Shown here: positions 47 through 60,219 of the stretch, piece by piece | How the letters are laid out: the number at the start of each line of letters is the position of its first letter | How positions within the stretch are numbered: the first letter of the stretch is position 1 | Virus record (IMG/VR): IMGVR_UViG_3300032288_004964 | Location: 310,001-374,000 of that record | Strand: one strand, 5' to 3' | DNA from: a virus | DNA: 64,000 bases | Position numbers and translations under genes: made by a program | The notes under the pieces: model-generated | Seen by the model: the letters and a program-made list of their open reading frames with translations, nothing else | Told to the model about the DNA's origin: nothing | The model's database searches: none

Positions 47-748
47 TTATAAAAAATAATTAATCATTTCAGATGTTTTACCACCATTATTAAAAATCTT
101 ACAAAGATTCTTATATTCTATATCATTTACTTTATAAAGTTGTAAATCAGCACCATATAAAGTATTAATATCACCTGTATTTTCGTCTAAATAATCTTCT
201 GACCACATTGATGAGGTTGGTCTAAATCCAGTTACTTCATATAATCTTTTTAGACAATCTATAACTACTGGAAATTTATCTGGATTAAAAAGACCTAAAT
301 TTAGATAGATAACTGAGTAACCAGGAATGGTATTATTTAATATATTCTCTTGTAGTCTTTCAAGATAACTCTTACCAGATCTATTTTTTGATTCTTCAAC
401 CTCCGAAAAATAAACATCATTGTAGTTCTTACTAGCCAATTTAATCATATCATTTGATAAAGGTTTAGATAAATCAATAAACATATTTTTCCAAGTATCT
501 TGAGTGGATTCACATTCTTTATTAATCCAATTCTCTTCAAAACTCATATCATAAAATAATTGATGTCTAATAGGTCTTGTTATATTATCAGTTGTAAAAA
601 ATTGATATCCAGACTCATATAATTTACACTTAGATAGAGACTCCTCATCTGTTAAATCATAGAATAGTTCTTGAATATCCAATTCAGTCGGAAATTCAGA
701 TTCGGTAATAACTGATTCAAATAACTTATATGTTTTTAAATATTTCAT
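47..748 (-). CDS. Tagged putative head-packaged protein, 233 aa
   Basis: No known family recognised. The N-terminus MKYLKTYKLFES is the clearest copy of a tag found on about 25 otherwise different proteins here. Residues 9-11 (L-F-E) fit the (L/I)-x-E cleavage consensus of T4 gp21-type prohead proteases, and the basic/aromatic lead resembles the T4 capsid-targeting sequence MKTYQEFIAE. I infer a protein loaded into the capsid and trimmed there. The body is acidic, soluble and has no membrane segment or obvious catalytic motif. It is the last gene of a tightly packed minus-strand run; its ATG lies 3 nt after the stop of the gene before it. Confidence 0.8.
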   Translation of the reverse strand: MKYLKTYKLFESVITESEFPTELDIQELFYDLTDEESLSKCKLYESGYQFFTTDNITRPIRHQLFYDMSFEENWINKECESTQDTWKNMFIDLSKPLSNDMIKLASKNYNDVYFSEVEESKNRSGKSYLERLQENILNNTIPGYSVIYLNLGLFNPDKFPVVIDCLKRLYEVTGFRPTSSMWSEDYLDENTGDINTLYGADLQLYKVNDIEYKNLCKIFNNGGKTSEMINYFL

Positions 749-751
749 AAT

Positions 752-1198
752 TTAATTTTTAAATTCAGCTCCAAATCCACATTCTACTCCAAAAACTCTA
801 ACTTTAATTTCCACATATGATATTTTATAGTCTATCATATTGTATTCATCATCCATTAAATTTTCATTATTTATGACAACTTTTTCTTTTTGATTTACAT
901 GATGTTTTCTTGGAATATAAATCTCCCAACTACATCTACTATCTTTTAAGTAATTATCAACTCTAAGAATAAATTCCTTAATTTCATTTATATCAAAGAG
1001 CTCTTTATATCCTCTAAACTTGTCTATTGTAATTCTAAACTCAGGATAATATCCAAAACTTTTATAATATGTATCTTCGGTATCTTCTACTTTTACTCTG
1101 AATCCAGTATCTTGAAATTCAAGAGACATATCTATAATATCATTTTTAATATTATCTCCTCTAGATTCAAATAACTTATATGTTTTTAAATGTTTCAT
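752..1198 (-). CDS. Tagged small protein, ILLEL-type paralogue, 148 aa
   Basis: N-terminal tag MKHLKTYKLFES with L-F-E at residues 9-11. After the tag comes a helix with the pattern DIIDMSLEFQDTGFRVKV (residues about 20-38), shared in looser form (D-I-L-L-E-L-x-D-x-G-F) with the genes at 1195, 1706, 2089, 4230, 17564 and 22258. A second shared block, EIKEFILRVDNYLKD, follows near residue 75. This is a paralogous family of small alpha/beta proteins. The start codon overlaps the stop of the upstream gene (ATGA), so translation is probably coupled. Role inferred: internal head protein. No enzymatic residues seen. Confidence 0.8.
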   Translation of the reverse strand: MKHLKTYKLFESRGDNIKNDIIDMSLEFQDTGFRVKVEDTEDTYYKSFGYYPEFRITIDKFRGYKELFDINEIKEFILRVDNYLKDSRCSWEIYIPRKHHVNQKEKVVINNENLMDDEYNMIDYKISYVEIKVRVFGVECGFGAEFKN

Positions 1199-1704
1199 AA
1201 TTTTATCATTAATCTAAAGTTTGTAAAAGAAATATAATCACCAATACCATCAAAATCTTCTTCTTTACTACAACCAGTTAAAAACTCTACGCCACTAGCA
1301 AAAAATCTTAAAGGTGATTTATCTTTATCGGTTCTATATTTAGTTTCTTTATCTATTGGGTCATAAATTGAATATGTTGAATAATACCATTCGGTTAAAC
1401 TAATAATACTATCTTTTATTTCATACCAAAAGAAAAGATTACCTGGATAACCACCTTGTGGATTAACAACTCCTGGTATTTCTCTATTTCCAGCACCCCA
1501 AGGTTTACTAATATAAACTTCTAAATAAATATCAGTTCTTGTCTTATTAAAGTATCTTTCTGGGTCAATCTCTACATCCTTTCTAATTCTACTAATGTTA
1601 ACTTGTAGACCGTTATCTTCCAATTCAAGAAGAATATCATTAACATAATTTTCAAGATCATCAATACTAGATTCAAATATTTTATATGTTTTTAAATATC
1701 TCAT
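1195..1704 (-). CDS. Tagged small protein, ILLEL-type paralogue, 169 aa
   Basis: Tag MRYLKTYKIFES (I-F-E at 9-11) followed by the family helix NDILLELEDNGLQVNI near residues 22-37. The rest is a beta-rich stretch with many aromatic residues and no motif I recognise. It overlaps the downstream gene by 4 nt and begins 1 nt after the stop of the upstream gene, so it belongs to the same transcript. I infer a packaged internal protein, comparable in design to the small T4 internal proteins; this rests only on the tag. Confidence 0.8.
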   Translation of the reverse strand: MRYLKTYKIFESSIDDLENYVNDILLELEDNGLQVNISRIRKDVEIDPERYFNKTRTDIYLEVYISKPWGAGNREIPGVVNPQGGYPGNLFFWYEIKDSIISLTEWYYSTYSIYDPIDKETKYRTDKDKSPLRFFASGVEFLTGCSKEEDFDGIGDYISFTNFRLMIKL

Positions 1705-1705
1705 T

Positions 1706-2092
1706 TTACATTTTATATATTTTTATCATAATAAGACTAGCTTGTCTACCAATCAATTCTATATCTTTATGATCATCAAGATCAATCCATCTGCCATTCT
1801 CATAGAATAATTCAATGTATTCAGGGCCTGAAAATGATATGCTAATACCATATTCTTTTTCAGATATGTATTCTGATATTCTTTCTAATGTGTTTTTAAT
1901 ATTATCTGTTATATCAAATAAATGTGGCCATTTACCATGATCCGATTCTATATCAAAGTATCCTTCACCCCAATGTTTACAAGTTAGCCCTTCATCTTGG
2001 ATATCTAATAACATATCACTAACATCTTGTTCTATTTCTTTTAGATCAGGTTCGATACTTTCAAATATTTTATATGACTTTATATGTTTCAC
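1706..2092 (-). CDS. Tagged small protein, ILLEL-type paralogue, 128 aa
   Basis: Tag MKHIKSYKIFES (I-F-E at 9-11), then the family helix SDMLLDIQDEGLTCKH near residues 25-40 and the second block DNIKNTLERISEYISE near 62-77. It is one of the shortest complete paralogues and probably shows the minimal fold. The start overlaps the stop of the upstream gene (ATGA). No catalytic residues are apparent. Function unknown; head packaging is inferred from the tag. Confidence 0.8.
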   Translation of the reverse strand: MKHIKSYKIFESIEPDLKEIEQDVSDMLLDIQDEGLTCKHWGEGYFDIESDHGKWPHLFDITDNIKNTLERISEYISEKEYGISISFSGPEYIELFYENGRWIDLDDHKDIELIGRQASLIMIKIYKM

Positions 2093-2730
2093 TTTTCTTC
2101 TCTTCTTTTTTTCATTAAATCTTTAATGAATTCTTTTATCTCATCATTACAATCAGGAGTGGGTAAGAAACCATATCCTCTCATTCTTGAGTACCATTTG
2201 ATTTGTCCAATGACATTACCACCTTTACTAACATTATAAGTGTCAGTTTTAGCACCTTTCTTTTTAGGTTGTAAAGTAAACTTTAAGGTTGAAACTTCTT
2301 TTTTAGCCTCAAAAATGTCTTTATCAACCGTATATTTTCTTTGAAATGAAGATATTCTTGGATTATAGTAAATGAAAATATTAATATTGTATAATTCCTC
2401 ACCAGAAAACTCTTTCATAAAGTCATCTATATATAAATAGTCATCAGAATTAGGTATACCAATATCAATTGAATAATCACTATCTTTTAGGTAATCTTTT
2501 ACTCTCAATAAAACATCCATTATATCTTCTAATCTAAAAAATCGGTCTTGATTATCTTTAATATAAACTCTTAAGCAATCTGTAGGATCTATACCATTTT
2601 TATAGTAATTAATATTAGATGTAGTATATTCAATGTCACACAAATCTAATTCTAATAAGATATCTTCAATATCTACTTTTATATCAGAGGATATTGATTC
2701 AAATATTTTATATGTTTTTAAGTATCTCAT
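2089..2730 (-). CDS. Tagged protein, ILLEL-type paralogue with extension, 213 aa
   Basis: Tag MRYLKTYKIFES followed by VDIEDILLELDLCDIEYT and the second family block MDVLLRVKDYLKDSDYSIDI. After the paralogue core there is an extra C-terminal part of about 70 residues with LKFTLQPKKKGAKTDT and a lysine/arginine-rich end (residues about 195-213). The words LKFTLQPK and EFTIQPQR also occur in the gene at 2727, so these two share a further module. Overlaps both neighbours by 4 nt. Function unknown. Confidence 0.8.
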   Translation of the reverse strand: MRYLKTYKIFESISSDIKVDIEDILLELDLCDIEYTTSNINYYKNGIDPTDCLRVYIKDNQDRFFRLEDIMDVLLRVKDYLKDSDYSIDIGIPNSDDYLYIDDFMKEFSGEELYNINIFIYYNPRISSFQRKYTVDKDIFEAKKEVSTLKFTLQPKKKGAKTDTYNVSKGGNVIGQIKWYSRMRGYGFLPTPDCNDEIKEFIKDLMKKRREEK

Positions 2731-3335
2731 CTGTTTACTATTGTTTCATCCGGGAACATCTCTATCAATTTAGATGATAATTCTCTTGTCATTTCAGGTT
2801 CCCAAGCTTTTATACCCCAGTTTTTAGATTCTCTTTGTGGTTGTATGGTAAACTCATAATTTAAAAATCCGCTTTTAACAATACTCATTTTATTTGGAAA
2901 GTATTTATTCCAAGTTATATTATTTTCTCCATGTGAGAATGTTTCACTGTAAACAAATATTTTATTACCTATCATCAAGTGGGTCTTTATTTCTGTTGCC
3001 ATCACTTTTATTTTCAACTCATTACCTTCATCTAAATAATCAAGTGAAAGGTCTTTAGCCATTTGTATTAGTTTCCAGTTTATCTCATCTTTTTTAATAT
3101 CTTCACAAGACAACCAATACTTATCAACTATCTTTTTTTCTTCATCAGAAATACTTTCTATTCCGTTATCTCCATGTACATCATATGGATTCTCATAATC
3201 ATACCCACCTTTTTTCCAAATAGCATACATAAGACCTGTATCTGGATCTAAAACATGACCAATACTATCTAACCTAATAAAGTTATCAGGTATAGTCATA
3301 GAATCATATTCTTCATATAGTTTTAAGTATTTCAT
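2727..3335 (-). CDS. Tagged hypothetical protein, 202 aa
   Basis: The N-terminus MKYLKLYEEYDS is a diverged form of the tag; L-Y-E at residues 6-8 would still fit a prohead-protease site. The body does not belong to the ILLEL family, but its end (YEFTIQPQRESKNWGI) resembles the C-terminal module of the gene at 2089. A TTTAATATATAG box sits 4 nt upstream of the ATG, so this gene may head its own transcript. No enzymatic motif recognised. Confidence 0.8.
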   Translation of the reverse strand: MKYLKLYEEYDSMTIPDNFIRLDSIGHVLDPDTGLMYAIWKKGGYDYENPYDVHGDNGIESISDEEKKIVDKYWLSCEDIKKDEINWKLIQMAKDLSLDYLDEGNELKIKVMATEIKTHLMIGNKIFVYSETFSHGENNITWNKYFPNKMSIVKSGFLNYEFTIQPQRESKNWGIKAWEPEMTRELSSKLIEMFPDETIVNR

Positions 3336-3338
3336 TGT

Positions 3339-3350
3339 CTATATATTAAA
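3339..3350 (-). promoter_or_regulatory. Late-type promoter box
   Basis: Reads TTTAATATATAG on the minus strand, ending 3 nt before the ATG at 3335. The same box occurs close upstream of many tagged genes in this window and is reminiscent of the T4 late box TATAAATA. Inferred, not proven. Confidence 0.5.
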
Positions 3351-4233
3351 AGTTCAGTAAGATTTTAATTGTATAGTCATAAATATCACTATCATCATCA
3401 AATTGTCTATTACCTCTTGAAACATCAAATATAACTTCTTCATAGTCTAAAGTTGGTAAAATAGAAGGTAAAACAGCATCTATATCTGATTCTAACTTTC
3501 TAAGATTCATTTTACCAGTTAAATGAGAATCACTATATCCACCAATATTAATAGTAACACAAGGTTTATACATATCTAATATTTTATCTACTGAATAATC
3601 TTTTTTCTTATTAATATCTGAACTATAGATAGTAACATCTCTTCTTTCATCTCCTTTAAATTTATCACCTAATTTAATACCATAATTATCAATATTAAAG
3701 TTAGCACAATTCCATTTTTTATCAGTTACATAATATTGGTCATCATCTCTTCTAAGAAGAATACTTGGATAACCTCCAATACTTAAAGTTGGATTAACAA
3801 TATCTTTTAATATAGAAATAATAATATTTAATTTATCACTATCTTTTGGTTTTGGAACAGATAGGAGTCCGTTATACTTTCTATTATTTGGTTTATCATG
3901 ATTCTCATAATCACCATAAGCAACACAACACATTGTCCATTTTTTCTTACTCTCAGGTATCTCATCATAGACATCATACATTCTATCATTGATATAATCA
4001 GTATCTACTTTAGACATTGCAATAAACATTCTATCAACTAAATCTTTAATCTTTTCCCAGTATCCTTCGCCAATAAAATGATCTGACCATTTTTTTAATG
4101 ATGATTCACTTACCATTGACTTTTGATTTTGATTCCATTGATATCTTTTTAGATCTTCAAACCAATCATAGATACCATATTTGGAAGATTCTGATTTTTC
4201 TAAAAAAGAATTATATTTTTCTAAATGTTTCAT
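3346..4233 (-). CDS. Tagged hypothetical protein, 295 aa
   Basis: Tag variant MKHLEKYNSFLEKS (F-L-E at 10-12). It is one of the larger tagged proteins and rich in charged and tyrosine residues. A stretch KWTMCCVAYGDYENHD near residue 97 and repeated YPSILLRRDDDQYY-like strands suggest a mixed alpha/beta domain, but I recognise no family. The stop is followed by the next gene without a real spacer, and the start overlaps its own upstream neighbour by 4 nt. Packaging inferred from the tag. Confidence 0.8.
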   Translation of the reverse strand: MKHLEKYNSFLEKSESSKYGIYDWFEDLKRYQWNQNQKSMVSESSLKKWSDHFIGEGYWEKIKDLVDRMFIAMSKVDTDYINDRMYDVYDEIPESKKKWTMCCVAYGDYENHDKPNNRKYNGLLSVPKPKDSDKLNIIISILKDIVNPTLSIGGYPSILLRRDDDQYYVTDKKWNCANFNIDNYGIKLGDKFKGDERRDVTIYSSDINKKKDYSVDKILDMYKPCVTINIGGYSDSHLTGKMNLRKLESDIDAVLPSILPTLDYEEVIFDVSRGNRQFDDDSDIYDYTIKILLNF

Positions 4234-4646
4234 TTTGGAATTACTTTAATATTTACATTTCTAACATCACCAATCATTTCAGAATTCTCATCTAAGAAAT
4301 GACCATCTTTATAATTTAATATGTAAGCAAAATCTTTTTTCTCACCACCAGATACGGTTGCACTTATTCCCCAATTTAGTGATCTCACATAAGAAACAAT
4401 GTGTAGTATTTCATCTTCTATTTCACTTAACTTAAATGAGTCATTATTTATCTTATTGACATCAAGAATGATTCTTCTATCATCTTTATCATTACTTTTG
4501 AATATTGAAGGAACTCCAGGATCTTGACCTAATAATGTTTTAAATCCTTTTTCTTTGAAGTCAATTATAATATCTTCTATAGTTTGCATAATACCACTTC
4601 TCTCATCAGTAGATTCAAATATGTTATATTTCTTTAAGTATTTCAT
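4230..4646 (-). CDS. Tagged small protein, ILLEL-type paralogue, 138 aa
   Basis: Tag MKYLKKYNIFES (I-F-E at 9-11), then QTIEDIIIDFKEKGFKTLL, a clear version of the family helix, and later SEIEDEILHIVSYVRS matching the second block. It sits directly downstream of the 2H phosphoesterase gene and overlaps it by 4 nt, so the two are probably made together. No catalytic residues seen. Confidence 0.8.
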   Translation of the reverse strand: MKYLKKYNIFESTDERSGIMQTIEDIIIDFKEKGFKTLLGQDPGVPSIFKSNDKDDRRIILDVNKINNDSFKLSEIEDEILHIVSYVRSLNWGISATVSGGEKKDFAYILNYKDGHFLDENSEMIGDVRNVNIKVIPK

Positions 4647-5176
4647 ATTTCAAAGATAACTTTTTCACTATTTGGTCTTGAATAAACTATCTTGTTAATA
4701 TTCTTAACTGAGTATTTATAATTAGGATTTACATACTTCTTACCTTCTCCTTTATTTAAATAAGCGATTGTTATATGTGGTTTATAAGTTGGAAACTTAT
4801 CATTATTAGGTAGCTTTGATAACTCATCATGTAATTCTTGTAGACCAGAATCCGAAACAACATTGAATTTCAAAACATCAAATTGTTCATTTTCAAAAAG
4901 ATTTATACCATCTATATCAATATGTAATTCACCATTAAACTTATCTAAAATAGATTTAACTTGATCTTCAGTAACATCTTTTTCAAGTCCATATAACAAT
5001 GTCAGATGTGGATATTCTTGAATACCGTGAGAATCATCACCTCCTGTATAAACATCTTTAGGATCAATAGAATTAGTTAATTCATCCCAATTACTTACAG
5101 GAACTTCAATCATTACACACCCGTATTCATATCCAGATGATTCTTTTATAAATTGTAAATAGTTTTTAATTATCAT
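4643..5176 (-). CDS. Tagged 2H phosphoesterase (2'-5' RNA ligase/Acb1-like)
   Basis: Two H-x-T motifs mark the 2H phosphoesterase fold: YPHLTLLYGL (His57, Thr59) and KPHITIAYL (His134, Thr136), spaced as in the family, within 177 aa. Members cut 2'-5' or cyclic nucleotide bonds; the T4 member gp57B (Acb1) destroys cyclic signals of the CBASS defence. The N-terminus MIIKNYLQFIKES closely matches the T4 capsid-targeting sequence and holds I-K-E at residues 10-12. I infer an enzyme pre-loaded in the virion. The substrate cannot be told from sequence; RNA 2'-5' linkages are an alternative. Lies in the tagged-gene operon. Confidence 0.8.
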   Translation of the reverse strand: MIIKNYLQFIKESSGYEYGCVMIEVPVSNWDELTNSIDPKDVYTGGDDSHGIQEYPHLTLLYGLEKDVTEDQVKSILDKFNGELHIDIDGINLFENEQFDVLKFNVVSDSGLQELHDELSKLPNNDKFPTYKPHITIAYLNKGEGKKYVNPNYKYSVKNINKIVYSRPNSEKVIFEI

Positions 5177-5688
5177 ATACTACCTTGTATTATTATTCTT
5201 TTTTCACCACCTCTATTATTATAAGAGAATTTGAATCCAATTCCAATTTCACTTTGTAATCTTTTTACAGCTACTAAGAAATCTTCAGCTTCTTCTCTTT
5301 CCTTGCTACCTTCTTTAAATTCTTCCTTTTCATCAGACATTGACCAATCATTTTTAGAAAATAATAAAGCTCTATTACTTCCTGAAATAGGGTTTAAATT
5401 ATGTCCTTTAAGCTCTTTAGCCTCCCAAGTTATTTCACCATCTGAATTTATTTCACCAGTCCAATCTAATAAATTTCTTCTATCCGATGGTTGATAAACT
5501 TCCTCTCTAGGTACCATTCTACAATTGAATTGTGGATTTTTCCAAATAGATATACCTGGGTAAGAAACATCTGATATCCAATACCAACCATTATCTTCAA
5601 ATTCTAAGAAACAATTTTTAATTGTATCAAGAACTTGATTATAGATTTGCTCTTCAATATTTTCATTAAATTTTCTAAGATATTTCAT
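5173..5688 (-). CDS. Tagged hypothetical protein, 171 aa
   Basis: N-terminus MKYLRKFNENIEEQ is a weaker tag (I-E-E at 11-13). A following segment TIKNCFLEFEDNGWYWI resembles the ILLEL helix, so it is likely a distant paralogue with a longer middle. The end has GIGFKFSYNNRGGEKR. It is the first gene of the minus-strand run, with an AT-rich box just upstream of the ATG. Function unknown. Confidence 0.78.
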   Translation of the reverse strand: MKYLRKFNENIEEQIYNQVLDTIKNCFLEFEDNGWYWISDVSYPGISIWKNPQFNCRMVPREEVYQPSDRRNLLDWTGEINSDGEITWEAKELKGHNLNPISGSNRALLFSKNDWSMSDEKEEFKEGSKEREEAEDFLVAVKRLQSEIGIGFKFSYNNRGGEKRIIIQGSI

Positions 5689-5691
5689 AAT

Positions 5692-5703
5692 GATATATAT
5701 TTT
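5692..5703 (-). promoter_or_regulatory. Late-type promoter box
   Basis: AAAATATATATC on the minus strand, 3 nt before the ATG at 5688. It would drive the whole tagged operon down to 47. Inferred from resemblance to the other boxes. Confidence 0.4.
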
Positions 5704-5764
5704 ATTTCTATTTTGGTAAAGTGGAAAAGATTAATTATCTTTGATAAAATTAAAAATAATAGAT

Positions 5765-5938
5765 ATGACAGAAAGATTTTCAATGAGAGAAACGCTTAAG
5801 AGTAAGTTCGGTGAAGCTGAAAAAAGTGTTAAAGGAAGTAGAGCAACAAAAAGAGCAACTGAAAAAGTTAAGTCTTCTGATACTGGAAAGTATAAAGTCA
5901 AAATTGTTGATGGTGTTAAGTATATGGTTTTAAAATAA
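5765..5938 (+). CDS. Small basic protein, 57 aa
   Basis: Short lysine/arginine-rich protein beginning MTERFSMRETLKSKFGEAEK. I chose the ATG at 5765 rather than the in-frame one at 5741 because the longer form adds only a hydrophobic stub before the A-rich leader. Pattern EKVKSSDTGKYKVKIVDGVKYMVLK at the end suggests a small beta hairpin. It is the only plus-strand gene in the first 9.6 kb and is closed by a strong hairpin terminator. Possibly a DNA-binding or internal protein; function unknown. Confidence 0.6.
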   Translation: MTERFSMRETLKSKFGEAEKSVKGSRATKRATEKVKSSDTGKYKVKIVDGVKYMVLK

Positions 5939-5940
5939 AA

Positions 5941-5966
5941 AAGAGGTCTATTGACCTCTTTTTTTA
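5941..5966. terminator. Bidirectional terminator
   Basis: GAGGTC (5943-5948) and GACCTC (5953-5958) form a hairpin with a TATT loop, flanked by A and T runs. It sits between convergent genes and can serve both. Confidence 0.85.
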
Positions 5967-6752
5967 TAAATTGTATTTAATATCTACCTTTTTAGGATCT
6001 GAATATAAATTCTTATTATAGTATTGGTCAAATACTTCTCTGTATTTTTGTTCCCATTCTTCTATATTAGGAATATTCATATCTTCCATTTTCTTTCCTA
6101 ATCCAGTTGACATATAAGCTTGTAACTCATCTGGTAAAACATGGTCAGCATAGCCATAATCAGTTATACATTTAAACATTGAATCTTTAACAACCCCGTC
6201 ACATTCACTATTTAATTTAGACATAGCTTCTTTATAATCAGTCAAAGTAAACCACATAGCATGAGCAAATTCATGTTCAAGTAATCTATTTGATAATTCA
6301 TCTACACCTAATAAGTAATATTTACTATCTCCCTCAATTTCTTTTATAGTATTAATAATAGATAACATAATTTTATCATAGTTATTAATTTCATCTTCTG
6401 GTATACCAAACATACATTCTTCTAAAATAGTAGATGGTATATTAAATCCTGACCAATCAGCACCATAAGTAAATTCTTGTTTACCATAATGTTGTTTGTA
6501 AAGATCTTGGAATCTTGAAAATTTGAATTGTTTACTGATTATTTCTTCAAATGCACTTTCATAAAATTCTTGTGGTCTTAGAAATAACATAGCTCTTGAA
6601 TGAGAGTCTTCTACTTTAACTGCCCATATGTGTTCACCAACATGATATAATTCAATAGATTGAAGATATAGTTCCATTTGTGGAGCTAGTAATCTATTAG
6701 GGTCAGTTATTAACTTTTCTAAAAATAATTTATAGGATTTAATTAGTTTCAT
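5964..6752 (-). CDS. Tagged HExxH zinc metallopeptidase, 262 aa
   Basis: The motif LLEHEFAHAMWF at residues 158-169 contains H-E-F-A-H (160-164), the zinc-binding and catalytic signature of metallopeptidases. Glu209 in PDELQAYMSTG, 45 residues later, is a plausible third ligand as in gluzincins. The N-terminus MKLIKSYKLFLEK is the packaging-type tag. I infer a protease delivered with the DNA, which could remove a host protein early or work in head maturation. Signal peptide and membrane segments are absent. The family beyond the motif is not recognised. Confidence 0.7.
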   Translation of the reverse strand: MKLIKSYKLFLEKLITDPNRLLAPQMELYLQSIELYHVGEHIWAVKVEDSHSRAMLFLRPQEFYESAFEEIISKQFKFSRFQDLYKQHYGKQEFTYGADWSGFNIPSTILEECMFGIPEDEINNYDKIMLSIINTIKEIEGDSKYYLLGVDELSNRLLEHEFAHAMWFTLTDYKEAMSKLNSECDGVVKDSMFKCITDYGYADHVLPDELQAYMSTGLGKKMEDMNIPNIEEWEQKYREVFDQYYNKNLYSDPKKVDIKYNL

Positions 6753-6767
6753 AGTTATTTATTTTTT

Positions 6768-7017
6768 TTATAATTCTGATTCATCTTTTAATAAATCAAA
6801 AACAGCCTTAGCGCCTTCAATAAAACTTTCCTTAGATATGTTGAATTTTTCATCTGATTCACCTTCTTGTCTATATACCCAAGCCCATTCTGAAGACATA
6901 TCTTCAAATTATTCCTGTTTTAGTATTTTCAATCCAAATATAGTTATAGTTATCTGCCATGATTTTTGATTGATCAGATGATTCTAAGCTCTCATTAAAT
7001 TTCTTTAAGTGTTTCAT
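6768..7017 (-). pseudogene. Tagged small gene interrupted by a frameshift
   Basis: Starts MKHLKKFNESLESSDQ (diverged tag) and reads open for about 36 codons to a TGA near 6905. The adjacent frame then continues FEDMSSEWAWVYRQEG to DLLKDESEL and a TAA at 6768-6770. The total length of 250 nt equals 83 codons plus one base, so one net base shift joins the two halves into an 83-residue protein. Neighbours are intact and spacing is normal, which argues for one original gene. It may be real decay or a sequencing error near the ATAATTTGAA stretch. Confidence 0.6.
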
Positions 7018-7019
7018 AA

Positions 7020-7325
7020 TTATTCAACTTCATATTTTGTAACTTGTTTCAATTTAACAACATCCTTACCATCAACTAACTGGAATTTAACTTTCTTATC
7101 GTCAAAGTTATACGGATCAGAATTAAATATCTCCATCTGTTCTTCTGTTACTGGATATTCCTCACCCCAAACATCTCTACTATAAACACTCCATTCATAT
7201 CCATCAACACCAAGAGTGCCAACTTTAATTTCGGGATTTTCTGTTTTTATATTCTTCGAAGCGTTCTCTTGTTCATCACGCATTTGTTGGTCATAAAAGT
7301 TTTCAAATATTTTAATGTGTTTCAT
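7020..7325 (-). CDS. Tagged hypothetical protein, 101 aa
   Basis: Begins MKHIKIFENFYDQQ with I-F-E at residues 6-8, a short form of the tag. The rest is an acidic domain with GTLGVDGYEWSVYSRD and no family I know. Lies between the frameshifted gene and the 263-aa gene with spacers of under 10 nt. Function unknown. Confidence 0.75.
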   Translation of the reverse strand: MKHIKIFENFYDQQMRDEQENASKNIKTENPEIKVGTLGVDGYEWSVYSRDVWGEEYPVTEEQMEIFNSDPYNFDDKKVKFQLVDGKDVVKLKQVTKYEVE

Positions 7326-7333
7326 ATATTTAT

Positions 7334-8125
7334 TTATTTTTTAAACTTGTCTAATAATCTTTTGAATTCATATTCAGTTATCTCTTTACTTACAGGTGTG
7401 CCATAAATAGTTGTTGAATATTCAATGAAATTAGCCATTAAATCTTTTATGTTATTACCAAGATTTTTAAGCATACCCTCAAATCCATATTTTTTATAAC
7501 CATTATATGCCATCCAAGCAGACATTACTTCTAATAAAGATAAATCGCTTCCGAATAATCCTTCATTTAAGTGTTTCTTCTTTTTAGATTCTCCTGAGAA
7601 TGGACTCATTAAATGTTTTAAGTTCCAAGAAGGAACAAACCTCTTATTATGTTTCTCAAAGTCTTCATATGATTCAATACCAGAATCAATAGGATTTTGA
7701 ATATATTGAATATTAGCACCTTGCTTATTCATATCAGAGATTCTATTTCCAATATCAGTTTTAGCTGACATCTTCATAACTCTTTTAAGTTGATCTACTG
7801 TGTGTTGTCTTGGTAGTGATTCATTAGTAGGTTCAACATCTGAGAAATCTACCGACCCATCTTCATTAAATATAACAAATCCTATACCATTTTCAATTGG
7901 TAAAGTTCCTAACTCTACTAACTTATTAAAATCCTCAGTTCCAATACTTTCTGGTCCAAATTCCCAAACACGAGAAACACCACCATCTTTTATTACAAAT
8001 TGTATATCAACTTGTCCAGATGATTCAGTTGCCTTATTTTGTCTAATAATTCTTCTAATTCCAGTCTTATTAGAAACATATTCTTTTTCAGCACCGTATT
8101 TAGATCTTGCTCTAACTATTTTCAT
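7334..8125 (-). CDS. Hypothetical protein, 263 aa
   Basis: I start at the ATG whose first base is 8125, overlapping the TAA of the upstream gene (TAATG), rather than the in-frame ATG at 8155 inside that gene. The protein begins MKIVRARSKYGAEKEYVS, so it lacks the tag. Charged N-terminal half, then a lysine-rich hinge KKKKHLNEGLFGSD near residue 185 and a C-terminal part with hydrophobic helices LLEVMSAWMAYNGYKKYG. The hinge contains LNE, which could itself be a protease site. Function unknown; a virion role is possible from context. Confidence 0.7.
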   Translation of the reverse strand: MKIVRARSKYGAEKEYVSNKTGIRRIIRQNKATESSGQVDIQFVIKDGGVSRVWEFGPESIGTEDFNKLVELGTLPIENGIGFVIFNEDGSVDFSDVEPTNESLPRQHTVDQLKRVMKMSAKTDIGNRISDMNKQGANIQYIQNPIDSGIESYEDFEKHNKRFVPSWNLKHLMSPFSGESKKKKHLNEGLFGSDLSLLEVMSAWMAYNGYKKYGFEGMLKNLGNNIKDLMANFIEYSTTIYGTPVSKEITEYEFKRLLDKFKK

Positions 8126-8523
8126 TATTCTCCAAATTCCTTTTTCTCCATCCAATTAGAAAGTTCTTCATCATCCCAAAGTTTTTCTTTTAGATATTTC
8201 ATAACATTTTCTTGTATCATTTCTTCAGCTTTGTAGAAATCTTCAATATCAGATGATTTAATTATTTCTTTAAGAAGTTCATATACTTCATCTAATTTAG
8301 AAAATAATTCGTCATTTTCTTGAAAACTCTCAGCTAAAAACTTCTCACCATCTAATTTATTATTAGAAGGTTTAACAACTCTCATAGAAACATCTGGATC
8401 ACTTAATGATTTATCAGCATCTAATTTCTTATCAGTCTTTGGTTTAACCAATTCCTGCTTCTTCATATCCTTAGAAAGCTTTTGAGCTTTATCATTGATT
8501 GGATGTTTTTTAATATGTTTCAT
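8125..8523 (-). CDS. Tagged-like hypothetical protein, 132 aa
   Basis: Start placed at 8523 (MKHIKKHPINDKAQ); the frame stays open upstream but runs into the nrdB terminator. The N-terminus has the MKHIK lead but lacks the (L/I)-x-E site until FLAESF near residue 69. Very lysine-rich, with an acidic C-terminal helical half. A TTTAATATATAC box lies 22 nt upstream. Possibly a scaffold-like or packaged protein; no domain recognised. Confidence 0.7.
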   Translation of the reverse strand: MKHIKKHPINDKAQKLSKDMKKQELVKPKTDKKLDADKSLSDPDVSMRVVKPSNNKLDGEKFLAESFQENDELFSKLDEVYELLKEIIKSSDIEDFYKAEEMIQENVMKYLKEKLWDDEELSNWMEKKEFGE

Positions 8524-17563: not shown

Positions 17564-17998
17564 TTATATTGCTTTGAAAGCAAAAGTAATTGAATCTATT
17601 TTAAAGTTGTCTGGTAATACATCAACTGATTTATAATAGGTATAATTTGGTATTTTTACAACATAAATATATTCTAGTTCTAAACCTAATTCATCTTTAG
17701 AATAAGATTCAGCAAATCTTAAAGTTTCTTTTATTTCATCTATGTTAAATTCTTTTAGAGTTGGTCCATTATGAGTCATAACCCTTTTCTCAATTTTAAC
17801 ATCAATAGTTTTAATAGTATAGTTTTTAGTTTCTAAGTTCCAGGAACCAAAAGAATCAGATTTTGAAAAATCCATTTTTTGAGAAGTAGATTCTTTCACA
17901 CTAACTCTAAATCCTTCATCTTGTAACTCTAAGAATAACTCTTTGAACCAATCAAATTGATTAGACTCAAATATCTTATAATTTTTTAAGTATCTCAT
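17564..17998 (-). CDS. Tagged small protein, ILLEL-type paralogue, 144 aa
   Basis: Tag MRYLKNYKIFES (I-F-E at 9-11) then FKELFLELQDEGFRVSVKES, a clear family helix, and the second block FNIDEIKETLRFAESYSKD. A single-gene unit with its own late-type box and terminators on both sides, far from the main cluster, so the family is dispersed. Packaging inferred. Confidence 0.8.
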   Translation of the reverse strand: MRYLKNYKIFESNQFDWFKELFLELQDEGFRVSVKESTSQKMDFSKSDSFGSWNLETKNYTIKTIDVKIEKRVMTHNGPTLKEFNIDEIKETLRFAESYSKDELGLELEYIYVVKIPNYTYYKSVDVLPDNFKIDSITFAFKAI

Positions 17999-20583: not shown

Positions 20584-20609
20584 AAATCCAGATTTAATCT
20601 GGATTTTTT
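20584..20609 (+). terminator. Terminator after adk
   Basis: AAATCCAGATT pairs with AATCTGGATTT and is followed by a T run. Confidence 0.8.
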
Positions 20610-20618
20610 AATATATAA
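20607..20618 (+). promoter_or_regulatory. Late-type promoter box of the RNA ligase gene
   Basis: TTTAATATATAA, beginning in the terminator T run and ending 4 nt before the ATG at 20623. This supports that start over the upstream in-frame ATG at 20569. Confidence 0.55.
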
Positions 20619-20622
20619 AGTA

Positions 20623-21963
20623 ATGAAACTATTTAGATATAAAGAATTTATAAAAGAAGGGTTAGAAGTTAAAAATTCAATTCCTACTTATGAACAAGCA
20701 TTAGAATTATGTTCTATTGAAGAATCTCCATTTTATGAATCAAAAATGGAAGTAGATGAATATAATGTATCTGTTTTTAATTATAGACTTGCTCAATACA
20801 AAGACTTTTCAAATCCTATTCCTGAAAAGCCAGAATTAAAAGGATTTGAAATGAGAGGTTTAACTTTTATATTTAATAAAGATGGTTCTTTATTTAAAAG
20901 ATATGTGTTGCTTGAAAAGTTTTTTAATTTAAATCAAGTACCAGACTCTTTATACTCTGTTGTTAAAAACTACAAAATTAAGTTTGTTAATAATAAAGAA
21001 GATGGTTCAATTGCTTCTTTTGTTAAACTACCAAATGGTAAAGTTGTTGGTAAATCCAAAATGGGATTTGATAATGACCAAGCTAATGGTATAAATAGAA
21101 TTTACAAAACTAATTCAGATATTAAAAAATTTGTTGATTGGGCTTTAGATAATGATATAGTCCCAGTATTCGAATATGTTGCTCCAAACAACCGTATTGT
21201 TCTAAGATATCCAGGTGAAGAATTAATCTTATTAAGATTAAGAGATAATAAAACAGGTAAGCATATTGATATTAGAGACCACTTGGATAAAGTTGGTAAT
21301 ATTAGAATTGCTCCTTTTGAAGATGAAATTAAAGATTTAGATACATTAATTGAATTAAACGCTACTCAAGTTGATAAAGAAGGTTCTATTGTTACTTGTG
21401 AAGATGAGAATGGTCATGACTTTTTCTTTAAGTTAAAAACACCTTGGTACTGTGAAAGACATGGTTTATTAACAAATGATATTTATAGAGAACATATTAT
21501 TATTAATTATATCTTAGATGATAAGATAGATGATATATTAGGTCAAATACCAGAAGAAGAAGTTGAGGCTCATCAAAGAATTAATAAGATTATTTCTATT
21601 GTCAAAAAAGCAATTTCTGACAAAGTGTCTGAAATTGAAAAATCTTATGATGATTTTATTAAATCAGGTATTTCTAAAAAAGATTATGCTATAAAAAATA
21701 GAGTTGGTAACACTAACTTTGGTTTTGTTATGAATATGGTTAAAGCAAATGATTTAAGAAAGATGTCTAAAGAAGAAATATTAGATATCTATGATAATAT
21801 GGAAGAATATGAAAAGGCATTACAAAGATGTCAACCATATGAAATGGCTAAAGAATGGATTAAAGATTTAACTAAGAGATTAAACCTTTCTAGAGAATGG
21901 CTAAAGAAAAAAGATCCAACTCTTTTCTTTCAAGAACCAGAAGAAAGTGATGATGATAATTAA
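20623..21963 (+). CDS. rnlA: T4-type RNA ligase 1 carrying the packaging tag
   Basis: Seals 5'-phosphate and 3'-OH RNA ends; in T4 it repairs tRNAs cut by host anticodon nucleases. The nucleotidyl-transferase motif KEDGS has Lys125 as predicted AMP acceptor; EYVAPNNRIVL and FFKLKTPWYCERHG match later ligase motifs, and MRGLTFIF and EKFFNLNQ match T4 Rnl1 words. 446 aa against 374 in T4. The start MKLFRYKEFIKEG strongly resembles the T4 capsid-targeting sequence, with I-K-E at 10-12. I infer a ligase delivered with the DNA. Terminator, promoter box and tag together fix the start. Confidence 0.93.
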   Translation: MKLFRYKEFIKEGLEVKNSIPTYEQALELCSIEESPFYESKMEVDEYNVSVFNYRLAQYKDFSNPIPEKPELKGFEMRGLTFIFNKDGSLFKRYVLLEKFFNLNQVPDSLYSVVKNYKIKFVNNKEDGSIASFVKLPNGKVVGKSKMGFDNDQANGINRIYKTNSDIKKFVDWALDNDIVPVFEYVAPNNRIVLRYPGEELILLRLRDNKTGKHIDIRDHLDKVGNIRIAPFEDEIKDLDTLIELNATQVDKEGSIVTCEDENGHDFFFKLKTPWYCERHGLLTNDIYREHIIINYILDDKIDDILGQIPEEEVEAHQRINKIISIVKKAISDKVSEIEKSYDDFIKSGISKKDYAIKNRVGNTNFGFVMNMVKANDLRKMSKEEILDIYDNMEEYEKALQRCQPYEMAKEWIKDLTKRLNLSREWLKKKDPTLFFQEPEESDDDN

Positions 21964-22257: not shown

Positions 22258-22668
22258 ATGAAACATCTAAAGAGATATAAAATATTTGAAAATGCTACTA
22301 GCATAATTGATAATGTAAATGATATGTTATTTGAACTTAATGATGAAGGATTTAAGTGTAGAGTATCTGAGGGGCTAACACCAGATTTATTACCACCAGT
22401 TATTATTAATAATGTTCCAATGGGTTATAAATTAGTTAAAACTCATGATGTAATACTTGTAAATTTTTCTCAAGACAAACCGGGCTTTGATTTTGATGAT
22501 ATTAAAGAAGTATATTGGAGAATAAAATCATATCTTGAAGATAATGGATATATTGAAGATGGTGATAGTCTCCAAGATAGACTCAAAGATAAAGAAGAAG
22601 AAAATAAAAAAATCATGGGTGCCGGTAAACTACTATCAGTTGTAAGCTCATTTACAAAACCTATATAA
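22258..22668 (+). CDS. Tagged small protein, ILLEL-type paralogue, 136 aa
   Basis: Tag MKHLKRYKIFEN (I-F-E at 9-11), family helix NDMLFELNDEGFKCRVSEG, second block IKEVYWRIKSYLEDNGY. A plus-strand, dispersed member of the paralogous family, directly downstream of the RNA ligase and coiled-coil genes. Packaging inferred. Confidence 0.8.
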   Translation: MKHLKRYKIFENATSIIDNVNDMLFELNDEGFKCRVSEGLTPDLLPPVIINNVPMGYKLVKTHDVILVNFSQDKPGFDFDDIKEVYWRIKSYLEDNGYIEDGDSLQDRLKDKEEENKKIMGAGKLLSVVSSFTKPI

Positions 22669-24846: not shown

Positions 24847-25138
24847 TTACATACTATCATATCCACCACCGGTGTCTCTTAACATCCTATCACCAACTTC
24901 TCTGTTAGTAAGAGTATCGCTATCCGTATCTAAGTAACACATAGTATCACAATAAGGATAATGATCCCAACTACCATCTTTTAATTGAACTATTATTTTA
25001 GGACTACTTAATAATTCTGAACCATTTGTAATTGTTTCACTTGGTTCCATAGATTGTGATTTCTTATACCACCAACCATTCTTTTCAGCAAATTGTTTAA
25101 ATAAATCAACATCAGAATCAAATCTTGTGTAAACTATC
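24847..25138 (-). pseudogene. C-terminal part of the frameshifted tagged gene
   Basis: Reading from about 25135, this frame gives VYTRFDSDVDLFKQFAEKNG and onward to GGGYDSM. It continues naturally from MD at the end of the upstream frame (GRAILWDATINGKAGKFMD), a pairing I associate with a phage family reading roughly G-R-A-x-x-W...M-D-R-V-Y-T. The shift corresponds to one extra or two missing bases in GATAGTTTAC; loss of AG from an AGAG repeat would explain it. Confidence 0.6.
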
Positions 25139-26080
25139 CATAAATTTACCTGCTTTACCATTAATAGTAGCATCCCAAAGAATTGCTCTACCTTTTATCT
25201 TATCAGATGTATATTTCTCACCGTCAATTTTTCCATCATCAGAATATAAAATTACTAATGAAACTTGTGGGTTATAACAATAGATATCAAAATATTCTGA
25301 TGTTTCTACATCAGCCATACAAGAGTTGTTTAATGTCCCACCACCTTTAACATAATTATCAATTTCATACCAATAAGCAATTTTCTTACCTTGAATAATA
25401 TCAAATTGTTTAAGAGCGTCTTTAGCAAAATCATAAGTTGCTTTATAAGTATTTGTAAAATCTTCAATGTCTTTATCAGTAAATGTTACTTTAGCTTTTG
25501 TTAGAATAGCTCTAACTAATCTACCTATTTTAATTGGGTTTCTTGATGTTGACCATATCTTAAAATCTTCAGTATCAGCTTCTTCAACTGCTACTTTATT
25601 AATAACACCAATTCTTGGATTAGTTGTTCCATATTCTTGGAACATAATATAGATATTACCGGATTGTCTACTAACTGTTTCTGCTAAAATAGTTCCAATA
25701 GTCCCTGTTTCAGGTGCCCAACATCCGTATTTTTCTTTATCATATCCAAGCCTTTCAAATATTTTATCATTTCTACTACTAGTTGTTAAATATTTACCTG
25801 ACTCGGTAACTTCCCAAGTTTGTGGTTTATCCTTTGTTAGTTCTTGAACTTTTCTATCAGGAGTAAAACTAACTGAATCTTTCTCATCTGTTATATCAAT
25901 GTAGTTTTGAACAATTCCATCAACATCTTTTGAATAAAGATCAAGTAACTCACTAGCCAATTTATTAGACTTCATTCTAGTTAAAAGGTTAATAAATTTT
26001 TTTGAATAAACTACCTTAGATTCTAAAAGAAGATCATAAACTACTTTTTCAGAAAGGTATTGGTTATATTTTAATATCAT
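25118..26080 (-). CDS. Tagged hypothetical protein, N-terminal 320 aa of a frameshifted gene
   Basis: Tag MILKYNQYLSEKVV with L-S-E at 9-11. The body includes WEVTESGKYLTTSSRN and GGGTLNNSCMADVETSEYFD, the latter typical of a widespread uncharacterised phage protein family. This frame ends at HKI*, but the neighbouring frame continues a plausible C-terminal 90 residues. The intact product would be about 415 aa. A late-type box lies upstream. Packaging is inferred from the tag. Confidence 0.75.
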   Translation of the reverse strand: MILKYNQYLSEKVVYDLLLESKVVYSKKFINLLTRMKSNKLASELLDLYSKDVDGIVQNYIDITDEKDSVSFTPDRKVQELTKDKPQTWEVTESGKYLTTSSRNDKIFERLGYDKEKYGCWAPETGTIGTILAETVSRQSGNIYIMFQEYGTTNPRIGVINKVAVEEADTEDFKIWSTSRNPIKIGRLVRAILTKAKVTFTDKDIEDFTNTYKATYDFAKDALKQFDIIQGKKIAYWYEIDNYVKGGGTLNNSCMADVETSEYFDIYCYNPQVSLVILYSDDGKIDGEKYTSDKIKGRAILWDATINGKAGKFMDSLHKI

Positions 26081-28053: not shown

Positions 28054-28608
28054 TTAGGTTTCTATTTCAAATTCTTCATTATCTTCACCAAGCTCATCAT
28101 CTAATTCAATTTTTAGATTAACTAAAAACTCTTCATTGATATCCTTAATATCAACAGTTTTTCTGATTGGTGGTCCAATGATTTCAACTTTGTCTAAATC
28201 ATACTTTTTGAACTTTATTGTACATTTTTCAATGTCCTTAAATGAAAAATCAACATTTGGATCTTTAGGCATTCCATCTTTAATATCAATTGTAAATATC
28301 AAACAATAAGCTGCCATGTCATCTGTAAACCAAACTGTATAAGAATCATACATTCTAGAGTATTTAGAAATTTCAGAACTTTCTAATCTAACTCCTAAGT
28401 CTCTAAAGCTTACTTTATTTTCTTTAGATTCTTCTTTAGCTTGTTTAATAGACTTTGGTTTAGATTCTTTTGACTCTTCACTCTCTGGTTGATCTTCAAA
28501 CATCTTATCAATCTTTCTCTTAATAAAACCTAAGGCATCTGATATGTATTCTTCAGGAGTGTCATTCAATTCTTCATTGATAAAATCTATAAACTTTCTA
28601 ATTTTCAT
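28054..28608 (-). CDS. Tagged hypothetical protein, 184 aa
   Basis: N-terminus MKIRKFIDFINEELND is among the best matches to the T4 capsid-targeting sequence, with I-N-E at 10-12. A charged linker EESKESKPKSIKQAKEESKE follows near residue 43, then a beta-rich domain of about 110 residues. Late-type box 3 nt upstream of the ATG. Packaged protein inferred. Confidence 0.78.
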   Translation of the reverse strand: MKIRKFIDFINEELNDTPEEYISDALGFIKRKIDKMFEDQPESEESKESKPKSIKQAKEESKENKVSFRDLGVRLESSEISKYSRMYDSYTVWFTDDMAAYCLIFTIDIKDGMPKDPNVDFSFKDIEKCTIKFKKYDLDKVEIIGPPIRKTVDIKDINEEFLVNLKIELDDELGEDNEEFEIET

Positions 28609-29831: not shown

Positions 29832-30473
29832 TTACTGTTTAAGCACACTTAGACCTGGATTTTCTCTCAGAGCATTCTCTACAGCATTGTCTACACTATT
29901 CTGGTCGCGATGTATTACTATATCATATTGTGAGCTTACAAGTTTCTTGGTATCTTCTATAACACTTGATACATTTGTAGCGGGTTCAGAAGATGTGACT
30001 TCATCCTTTCCTGAATATTCTTTAGTAGTCCATCCTTTTCCATCTGCCTTACTCACTAAAATCTTATCTGGTATATTATCATAATCATGTTTTGTAATAT
30101 GTAGGACGCCTTTGTATTTTAAATCCAACTGATTTCCGTACATCTTATCTTCATCATATAAAGCAGTTCCCGATACTGGTCTTCCATCTTTTCCCTTTCT
30201 AGGACACGCCGCATAGAATGCGTTTGGTCTGTGTGGTGTAGCAAAAGCTATTCCTTTCTCGATATCATATATCTCATGTCCTTCAGGGGTAGAGTCTCCG
30301 ACATTTTGACCTGGTCTAAGTGGGGATGTACCTTGGATCTTACCACCCGTTCCTATAAGTGAGTAGTCACTTCTCTTCCATAAGTCGCCTTTCCTATCTA
30401 TAGGATCTATTCTATATACATAATTGGGATAGTTGATACTCTCAAATATTCTGAATGATTTTATATGTTTCAT
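29832..30473 (-). CDS. Tagged protein of foreign-looking composition, 213 aa
   Basis: Tag MKHIKSFRIFES (I-F-E at 9-11). The body is unlike the other tagged proteins: glycine/proline-rich, with YVYRIDPIDRKGDLWKRSDY and IAFATPHRPNAFYAACPR. The DNA is clearly richer in G and C (CG-containing codons) than its neighbours, suggesting recent acquisition. An R after a beta strand, as in YVYRID, is also seen in ADP-ribosyltransferases, but the remaining motifs are not clear, so I do not assign a function. Confidence 0.7.
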   Translation of the reverse strand: MKHIKSFRIFESINYPNYVYRIDPIDRKGDLWKRSDYSLIGTGGKIQGTSPLRPGQNVGDSTPEGHEIYDIEKGIAFATPHRPNAFYAACPRKGKDGRPVSGTALYDEDKMYGNQLDLKYKGVLHITKHDYDNIPDKILVSKADGKGWTTKEYSGKDEVTSSEPATNVSSVIEDTKKLVSSQYDIVIHRDQNSVDNAVENALRENPGLSVLKQ

Positions 30474-30518: not shown

Positions 30519-30881
30519 ATGAGAAAAATGAGTCAATTAATAAAGGAAAGTGCAGAGTATGTAGGAGTTGGTTGTCAAAGTCTTAACTCTGAGTTAATAT
30601 TCCTAACAGAAGGTGGCCATCAAGTAGGAAGTCTTGTAATTATCTACAATGAAAATACCGCTTCTATTTTTTCAGTAGAAGTTCTAAATAAACATAGAGG
30701 AAAAGGATATGGTAAGAAATTAGTAGTTGAGGCTATTAACAGAGCTAAGTCTAAAGGATCATTGTCATTAGAGTTAAACACTGAAACTGATAACACAGTT
30801 GCTAATAATCTTTATAAATCATTAGGATTTGAACTAAATGGATTAAAAGATGATTTTAATAATTATAGAAAAATATTATAA
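30519..30881 (+). CDS. Tagged GNAT-family N-acetyltransferase, 120 aa
   Basis: Acetyl-CoA binding motif NKHRGKGYGKKLVVEAI (R60-x-x-G-x-G) and the terminal NTVANNLYKSLGFELNG pattern are typical of GNAT enzymes. The N-terminus MRKMSQLIKES fits the packaging tag, with I-K-E at 8-10. It is compact, about 25 residues shorter than a typical GNAT. Target unknown: a host protein, tRNA or antibiotic-like small molecule are all possible. Delivery from the virion is inferred. Confidence 0.8.
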   Translation: MRKMSQLIKESAEYVGVGCQSLNSELIFLTEGGHQVGSLVIIYNENTASIFSVEVLNKHRGKGYGKKLVVEAINRAKSKGSLSLELNTETDNTVANNLYKSLGFELNGLKDDFNNYRKIL

Positions 30882-41656: not shown

Positions 41657-42361
41657 TTACAATTTAGAAATAACAGGATCATTATTATCAACACCTTTAA
41701 TTGGAATTGGTGGATTTACATCAAAATTCTTATTAATAAAAGTCTTTAACTTATTTTCTATAAAGTGGTCAGGAACCTCACCATCTGGATTCATTAATTC
41801 CATTTCTAAACTAAGTTCTGTTGAAAATCTATCTAAAACTTCTGGCTTAATAGCCTCAACTAATCTATCAGAAACAACAAAAGCTCTTGTAAATCTATCT
41901 TTAAGTGGAACTTCTCCTTCTGGTAATTTCATATAAATATCTATCATCTTCTTCAAAAAGTCTGTATATTTTGAATGCGGGTTTATATAATTAAATATTG
42001 GATCAAATACTCTACGAAACATTCTAGATGTACCAAATACAATTCCAACAATTGCTACTATTGGAAAGAATGGAACAAGAGCTAATGGTATAGCAGATGG
42101 TAGAATATTAAATATACCTTTTTTTATGTCTGTTTTTCTTTTAGCATCAATAGCATCTTTAAAGATAGCATTTAACATACCAAATGTAAACTTTTCACCT
42201 TTTTCATTTAAGTAATGGCCAAGATGACCATTTTTTGCTAAGTGAACTTGTTTGTTTAATTCATCTTCATCACTAACTCCCATTTCAATTAACTTAGCTC
42301 TGATATTTCTATCATATCTTTCTAAAATTAAAAAATGGTTATATCTCTTTAATGTGCGCAT
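41657..42361 (-). CDS. Tagged protein with a membrane segment, 234 aa
   Basis: Start taken at 42361 (MRTLKRYNHFLILERYD, tag with I-L-E at 12-14) rather than 42370. A hydrophobic stretch FNILPSAIPLALVPFFPIVA and onward (about residues 85-112) predicts one or two membrane spans, unusual among the tagged proteins. If packaged, it might insert in the host membrane on ejection, for example as part of a DNA-entry channel. Lies between the two topoisomerase genes. Confidence 0.75.
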   Translation of the reverse strand: MRTLKRYNHFLILERYDRNIRAKLIEMGVSDEDELNKQVHLAKNGHLGHYLNEKGEKFTFGMLNAIFKDAIDAKRKTDIKKGIFNILPSAIPLALVPFFPIVAIVGIVFGTSRMFRRVFDPIFNYINPHSKYTDFLKKMIDIYMKLPEGEVPLKDRFTRAFVVSDRLVEAIKPEVLDRFSTELSLEMELMNPDGEVPDHFIENKLKTFINKNFDVNPPIPIKGVDNNDPVISKL

Positions 42362-60131: not shown

Positions 60132-60203
60132 GCAGGTATAGCTCAGTGGTAGAGCAGGATTCTCTAAAAGTCTTTGTCGTGGGTTCGATCCCCGCTACCC
60201 GCA
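60132..60203 (+). tRNA. tRNA with anticodon CUA (amber-reading)
   Basis: Cloverleaf: acceptor GCAGGTA/TACCCGC (one A-C mismatch at 3-70), D stem GCTC/GAGC, anticodon stem GGATT/AGTCT with two wobble pairs, loop CTCTAAA so positions 34-36 are C-U-A, T arm GTGGG-TTCGATC-CCCGC. Discriminator A73; CCA is not encoded, as usual in Bacteroidota. Anticodon CUA pairs with UAG. The body resembles tRNA-Gly, but identity elements are mixed, so the charged amino acid is unknown. Confidence 0.88.
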
Positions 60204-60219
60204 CTAAAATAAAACAAAC

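Follow-up and report, generated by a model that had tools for sequence, protein, structure and literature searches.

The closest described system is the capsid-targeting sequence (CTS) of phage T4, in which residues 4 and 7 serve targeting and residues 8 and 10 serve processing; Asp at position 10 stops processing, and the T4 protease has the specificity L/I-x-E (PMC9026906). The products of T4 ipII and ipIII begin with MKTYQEFIAE↓A (here and below, the arrow follows the final Glu). A comparable N-terminal tag is carried by a large set of proteins encoded in the window, the whole stretch of 64,000 nucleotides that was analysed, which is positions 310001-374000 of the linear 385,333-bp virus record IMGVR_UViG_3300032288_004964 of IMG/VR (G000), 28.7% GC. 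The remainder of the record, that of a T4-like phage of 385 kb, was read in stretches, and 384 open reading frames (ORFs) were called in the whole; the nearest cultured relatives hint at a Bacteroidota host. The tag, an N-terminal tail of 8-13 residues, reads M-K-x-(L/I)-K-x-Y-x-x-F-(I/L)-x-E in its typical form; MKxLKxYKxFE↓S, MKxLKKFNE, and MKxLKxFE are shorter forms. It is likely a T4-type CTS, which would pack proteins in the head, be cut after its Glu, and allow their delivery at infection.

Frequency, end residue, and exchange of the tag

The profile used to call tags was aligned on their last residue, Glu; it misses some tags visible by eye, such as MKHISNFKLYLES, and its lower-scoring matches include false positives, such as MNIKEKFLE. 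At a false discovery rate of about 5%, 68-81 of the 384 genes of the record are tagged, or about one fifth of its proteins, and these genes are scattered along the whole record on both strands. When each gene is given its longest-ORF start only, 62 exceed the profile threshold, compared with 3.5 +/- 1.8 for shuffled N-termini. Simple patterns give the same picture: M-K-x-x-K-x-[FY] occurs within the first 18 residues of 26 proteins when 0.1 are expected from interior windows, and N-terminal [FY]..[FY][ILMV].E occurs 20 times (1.4 expected). The closest capsid proteins are those of the uncultured huge phages LR745206 (635 kb, 72%), LR756502 (642 kb), and LR756501 (735 kb, 53%), of which LR745206 and LR756501 were read over their full length. 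About 150 of 751 genes are tagged in LR745206 (138 profile matches vs 6.9 shuffled) and 113 of 831 in LR756501 (100 vs 6.5), where the last pattern above occurs 49 times against 2.2 expected and the consensus, M-(I/V)-K-x-Y-x-x-F-(I/L)-N-E↓(A/S/N), is very near T4 MKTYQEFIAE↓A. Sphingobacterium phage PAU has 17 matches vs 1.5 shuffled, and Tenacibaculum phage PTm1 has no clear excess (3 vs 1.2). Literature searches, with most subscription papers outside their scope, gave no account of such a tag in huge phages.

The likeness to MKTYQEFIAE pointed out in the original prediction is borne out, since the Y-x-x-F-(I/L)-x-E form fits the T4 determinants (PMC9026906). The aromatic residues that match Tyr4 and Phe7 of T4 are present, as Y-x-x-F, in tag classes A and B; class C, the KFNE form, is without that spacing. 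After N-terminal Y-x-x-F-(I/L)-x the record has Glu 23 times and Asp never, compared with 31 Glu and 25 Asp in protein interiors (Glu not being required by the pattern); at the same N-terminal position LR756501 has 50 Glu and 2 Asp. Glu also ends the tag in 9/9 class A and 13/15 class C members, as well as in 19 of 20 PAU tags, where mostly A or S follows. The original prediction also held that most tags contain (L/I)-x-E. This is so for 41 of 78 tags (I in 28, L in 13), classes A and B conforming to the gp21-type L/I-x-E, but about 40% (30/78) have F or Y at that position, P3. In an AlphaFold2 model of the protein at window 1195-1704 (predicted local distance difference test score, pLDDT, 61), residues 1-12 are among the least ordered and the body is alpha/beta.

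Judged from sequence, tags and bodies are separable, that is, the tag is modular. The orthologue of the tagged RNA ligase in LR756501 has no tag and begins at the body, and in two other IMG/VR loci (L221 and L222) a tag is fused straight to the C-terminal domain of the protein at window 2089-2730. A gene for an NFACT-R protein adjoins the capsid gene, and its 30 compared variants combine one body with differing tag forms (MKHINNFKLYLE↓S, MIKNFNSFNE↓S, MKHLKQFE↓S, MRNLKKFNNFLKE↓G); the tag is swapped at a constant E↓(S/G) junction, with FFE↓K as the single exception.

If the tag were instead the best-conserved part of a duplicated domain, without any targeting role, the tagged genes should form a paralogous family. 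The earlier statement that their bodies differ is correct across the genome, where the 82 tagged proteins scanned match 27 Pfam families and no family is matched by more than one of them. It is not correct for several genes of the run described below and for those at 17564 and 22258, which share a diverged body family (class A; 13-31% identity to window 1195-1704) that is too divergent for an IMG/VR profile scan. A search for a shared fold with the model of 1195-1704 gave no PDB match at E <= 0.001. This family and small paralogue clusters elsewhere in the genome favor paralogy, but the 27 single-member families and orthologues that differ in tag presence argue against it. Paralogy explains part of the uniformity in the 47-5688 run and is refuted as a full explanation; that it accounts for the tag is highly improbable.

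The head module and the proposed route into the capsid

The head genes of the record encode a T4-type portal (Portal_T4, 9e-56), a Gp23 capsid protein (2.7e-28), and a T4-type terminase (3.9e-21). A gp21-type protease, for which the original prediction had advised a search, was also found: a 712-residue protein consists of an S77 protease domain, matched weakly in Pfam, followed by a scaffold-like region. This protein is homologous to annotated proteases of PTm1 and MA9V, and in PTm1 the protease-scaffold fusion itself is annotated. The scaffold part of the 712-residue protein contains ~11 copies of Y-S-E-Y-(I/L)-A-E-(N/H), and each of 80 IMG/VR relatives has a protease-scaffold with 10-13 repeats (11 in 61 of them). 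The capsid protein has F/Y-HSINE↓NAY where T4 gp23 has FLTE↓AEI, in every relative row examined. Separately, LR756501 encodes a second, stand-alone copy of the prohead-protease domain (W02:11314-11850, minus strand).

The tag looks like a single unit of this scaffold. Of the 26 instances of Y.[EQND][FY][IL].E among the proteins of the record, 10 are in N-terminal tags, 10 in the scaffold, and 6 elsewhere, and the split is similar in LR745206 and LR756501. Because of its resemblance to the phage's own scaffold repeat, Y-S-E-Y-(I/L)-A-E, the tag would let the proteins that carry it assemble together with the prohead's scaffold core. The tags would then be cut after Glu by the gp21-type protease, like the scaffold repeats and the capsid protein, and mature bodies would be released within the head beside the DNA, for delivery at infection. 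A basic, aromatic tag could also bind other partners, and might thus address another site, such as a replication compartment or a membrane. However, the motif is concentrated in the scaffold, the tag has no hydrophobic stretch, and no tubulin homologue was found in the record when a phage-nucleus address was considered; a destination outside the head is scarcely credible.

Together, the T4-type head module, the scaffold and capsid motif, the exclusivity of Glu, the modularity, and the match to the T4 determinants support the head-targeting reading of the original prediction. The enrichment of the tag, the late-type promoter motif near tagged genes (below), and the annotation as internal capsid proteins of PAU gp142 and gp154, which have the PAU form of the tag, also count in its favor. 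The process would comprise binding to the core, cleavage, retention of the bodies in the virion, their ejection, and a role of the cargo in immediate tRNA repair and counter-defence; dozens of proteins would probably reach the next cell ready-made in the particle. The alignment of the tagged RNA ligase (window 20623-21963) with T4 Rnl1 begins at residue 24, and that of a tagged CCA-adding enzyme with solved enzymes at residue 18. Other tagged cargo includes a NUDIX plus P-loop kinase protein and NFACT-R (RqcH-like), GNAT, methyltransferase, and HAD-like proteins; LR745206 also tags RNA ligase, CCA-adding, 2H, and NFACT-R proteins. A PDB sequence search with the 2H phosphoesterase (window 4643-5176) gave no match, and PADLOC gave weak matches at most. 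Such cargo may be able to mend cleaved tRNA and to destroy cyclic-nucleotide signals, which would be useful to the phage at entry.

It is also conceivable, though unlikely, that the tag leads to the prohead core but that many tagged proteins assemble the head or are degraded there, and so are not delivered. T4 gp22 and gp67 are likewise cut at L/I-x-E and mostly exit the head (PMC9026906), and PAU tags cluster at head genes and include that of an annotated scaffold protein. However, the annotated tagged bodies are mostly enzymes (RNA ligase, CCA-adding enzyme, NUDIX-kinase, GNAT, 2H phosphoesterase), which are unlikely scaffolds.

Some observations weigh against a CTS-like function. The Peptidase_S77 match is weak (5.6e-4, 19.9 bits, compared with a Pfam cut-off of 27). 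Class C has F/Y, not L/I, at P3, making its cleavage uncertain. PTm1 is without tags despite a similar protease-scaffold, and no virion proteomics for the clade was found in the literature. Finally, the codon diversity of class A tags in the record is 5.3 bits, compared with 8.1 expected, so that recent duplication explains part of the class A uniformity.

This low diversity also favors an explanation in which the conserved 5' ends act at the level of nucleic acid, as a late promoter at the ATG together with a coding-region translation enhancer on leaderless mRNAs, and the peptide is a by-product. The motif AATATATA(G/C) is present 24-37 nt upstream of the portal, protease, capsid, sheath, terminase, and large fibre-like genes, and is presumably a late promoter because it is placed before structural genes. 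It lies within 19 nt of the ATG in 31/81 tagged genes vs 27/303 untagged genes (odds ratio 6.3, p = 2e-9), an association that is replicated in LR745206 (p = 3e-11) and is weaker in LR756501 (p = 1e-3). In tagged genes that have the motif, its distance to the ATG is in most cases exactly 12-13 nt, from which leaderless mRNA is predicted; this position, too, counts in favor of elements of that kind. T4 late promoters of the TATAAATA type show no enrichment upstream of tagged genes. However, synonymous codon choice in class B tags is as free as in the rest of the genome (4.77 vs 4.80 bits in the record; 6.30 vs 6.04 in LR756501), 31/81 tagged genes are operon-internal (gap of <12 nt) yet keep the tag, the promoter motif occurs without a tag in genes such as that for MASFNFSDF..., and a preference for E over D is a property of amino acids. 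On codon diversity, the tag as a DNA element is rejected for class B, but the idea stays partly true for class A; that the peptide is a by-product is very unlikely. A gene on the plus strand at G000:C1:235740-236348 encodes, by eye, an extracytoplasmic function (ECF)-type sigma factor, a candidate controller of late genes.

A fuller form of the CTS reading has about an even chance of being right: in huge phages of this clade, a general address that mimics the scaffold and has interchangeable forms would load 80-150 different proteins per head from late, often leaderless mRNAs, for counter-defence at entry. The load would then include, at those same even odds, a tRNA-repair set made up of the RNA ligase, the NUDIX-kinase, the CCA-adding enzyme, the 2H/Acb1-like phosphoesterase, and NFACT-R.

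Tagged genes of the window and other observations

A run of twelve consecutive minus-strand ORFs (47-7325) bears the tag, where at least ten had been claimed, and 10 tagged genes lie elsewhere in the window (Table 1). The total of 22 falls short of the approximately 25 stated, although a large set is indeed present and, over the whole record, exceeds what had been described. The run had been placed as far as 8523, but the two ORFs at 7334-8523 (N-termini MKIVRARSK... and MKHIKKHPIND...) are without a good tag. Nine of the positions listed outside the run (17564, 20623, 22258, 25118, 28054, 29832, 37282, 41657, and 52224) proved to be tagged, and 30519 has a weak variant (MRKMSQLIKES).

Table 1. 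Tagged genes and a promoter-like motif in the window (window coordinates; the arrow marks the end of the tag)
Position	Strand	Feature	Tag	Remark
47..748	-	tagged protein	MKYLKTYKLFE↓S	orthologue in LR745206 without tag, starts at body
752..1198	-	tagged protein, class A body family	MKHLKTYKLFE↓S	
1195..1704	-	tagged protein, class A body family	MRYLKTYKIFE↓S	
1706..2092	-	tagged protein	VKHIKSYKIFE↓S	tagged only with GTG start (VKHIKSYKIFES)
2089..2730	-	tagged protein	MRYLKTYKIFE↓S	
2727..3335	-	protein with degenerate tag	MKYLKLYEEYDS	L220 orthologue has MKYLKLYE↓NF
3346..4233	-	tagged protein	MKHLEKYNSFLE↓K	
4230..4646	-	tagged protein	MKYLKKYNIFE↓S	
4643..5176	-	tagged 2H phosphoesterase (2'-5' RNA ligase/LigT; weak Acb1)	MIIKNYLQFIKE↓S	tag also in LR745206, L218
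5173..5688	-	tagged protein	MKYLRKFNE↓N	
5964..6752	-	tagged protein	MKLIKSYKLFLE↓K	
7020..7325	-	tagged protein	MKHIKIFE↓N	
17564..17998	-	tagged class A protein	MRYLKNYKIFE↓S	
20595..20622	+	stretch with AATATATA late-promoter-like motif near RNA ligase ATG		predicted leaderless mRNA
20623..21963	+	tagged T4 Rnl1-like RNA ligase	MKLFRYKEFIKE↓G	
22258..22668	+	tagged class A protein	MKHLKRYKIFE↓N	
25118..26080	-	tagged protein	MILKYNQYLSE↓K	
28054..28608	-	tagged protein	MKIRKFIDFINE↓E	
29832..30473	-	tagged protein	MKHIKSFRIFE↓S	
30519..30881	+	GNAT acetyltransferase	MRKMSQLIKE↓S	weak tag
37282..38865	-	tagged protein	MKKIPNYKSFLEE↓V	tag read by eye
41657..42361	-	tagged protein	MRTLKRYNHFLILE↓R	tag read by eye
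52224..52790	+	tagged protein	MKHLKYFE↓A	

The window also contains chaperone genes that are host-like by eye, for DnaJ (13957-15015), GrpE (15881-16357), and DnaK (22913-24802). A tRNA called by ARAGORN at 60132-60204 on the plus strand is tRNA-Pyl-like, has the anticodon CUA, and may be an amber suppressor; TAG is the stop codon of only 32 of the 384 called genes of the record.

Other repeated peptides were seen in related or unrelated phages. In LR756501 (735 kb), 86 predicted proteins (loci L040-L076) together hold ~100 copies of the octapeptide DPYGEE(D/N/E)W, which are found at any position and often C-terminally (for example, W02:11314-11850, minus strand, and W02:619760-620383, plus strand). 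The codons of the octapeptide vary (76 distinct DNA versions among 95), and its carriers include the small second paralogue of the protease as well as a protein with scaffold repeats. It was not found in LR745206, PTm1, PAU, or the present record, and it resembles a peptide tag of a second, dispersed kind in LR756501. In another phage contig (L223:2536-8416), six neighbouring genes have in common an unrelated N-terminal tag, M(N/T)(N/H)(K/R)EKLYLAKxA; this tag system of a different phage is analogous to the present one.

Significance and comparison with known systems

If the tag acts as proposed, sequence would predict which unknown proteins of huge phages travel in the virion and are the first to act when a cell is infected, and the four-protein system of T4 would become a delivery route for about one fifth of genes. 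It would also suggest a reason for the presence of tRNA-repair and anti-signalling enzymes in huge heads and would offer many natural tags for loading capsids with proteins. PAU, which is cultured and has its own tag form, permits direct testing.

Several systems are similar in part. In phage P1, N-terminal residues of DarB are enough to direct a reporter to the capsid interior (PMC9024508); P1, which is likened here by description only, differs in having no separate scaffold system and in that one protein has been shown to behave in this way. The giant phages SPN3US and phiKZ, with their ejection proteins, also pack numerous proteins in the head, and a gp21-like protease cuts propeptides from them; however, the cut follows A-x-E, the propeptides are mostly long, and ~80% of the head proteins are uncut (PMC10052503). 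No short tag common to dozens of proteins is described for them. In PAU, ~20 proteins encoded around the head genes begin with MKT(L/I)(T/S)(K/Q)L(Y/F)E↓(A/S), among them gp142 and gp154, which are annotated as internal capsid proteins. The PAU tag, known from sequence alone, has another consensus and is clustered rather than genome-wide, and PAU has a separate scaffold gene.

The most extensive likeness is to the CTS of the T4 internal proteins (Alt, IPI, IPII, and IPIII), which also lies at the extreme N-terminus, has ~10 residues, and takes the form Y-x-x-F-(I/L)-x-E↓(A/S) (PMC9026906, PMC3012670). Both phages combine a T4-type head module and an S77 protease with unrelated bodies after the tag. 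Unlike T4, with its four small, basic proteins, the phages described here would use several interchangeable tag forms on ~80-150 proteins that include recognisable enzymes, a promoter motif abuts the start codon, and the scaffold is fused to the protease and contains ~11 tag-like repeats.

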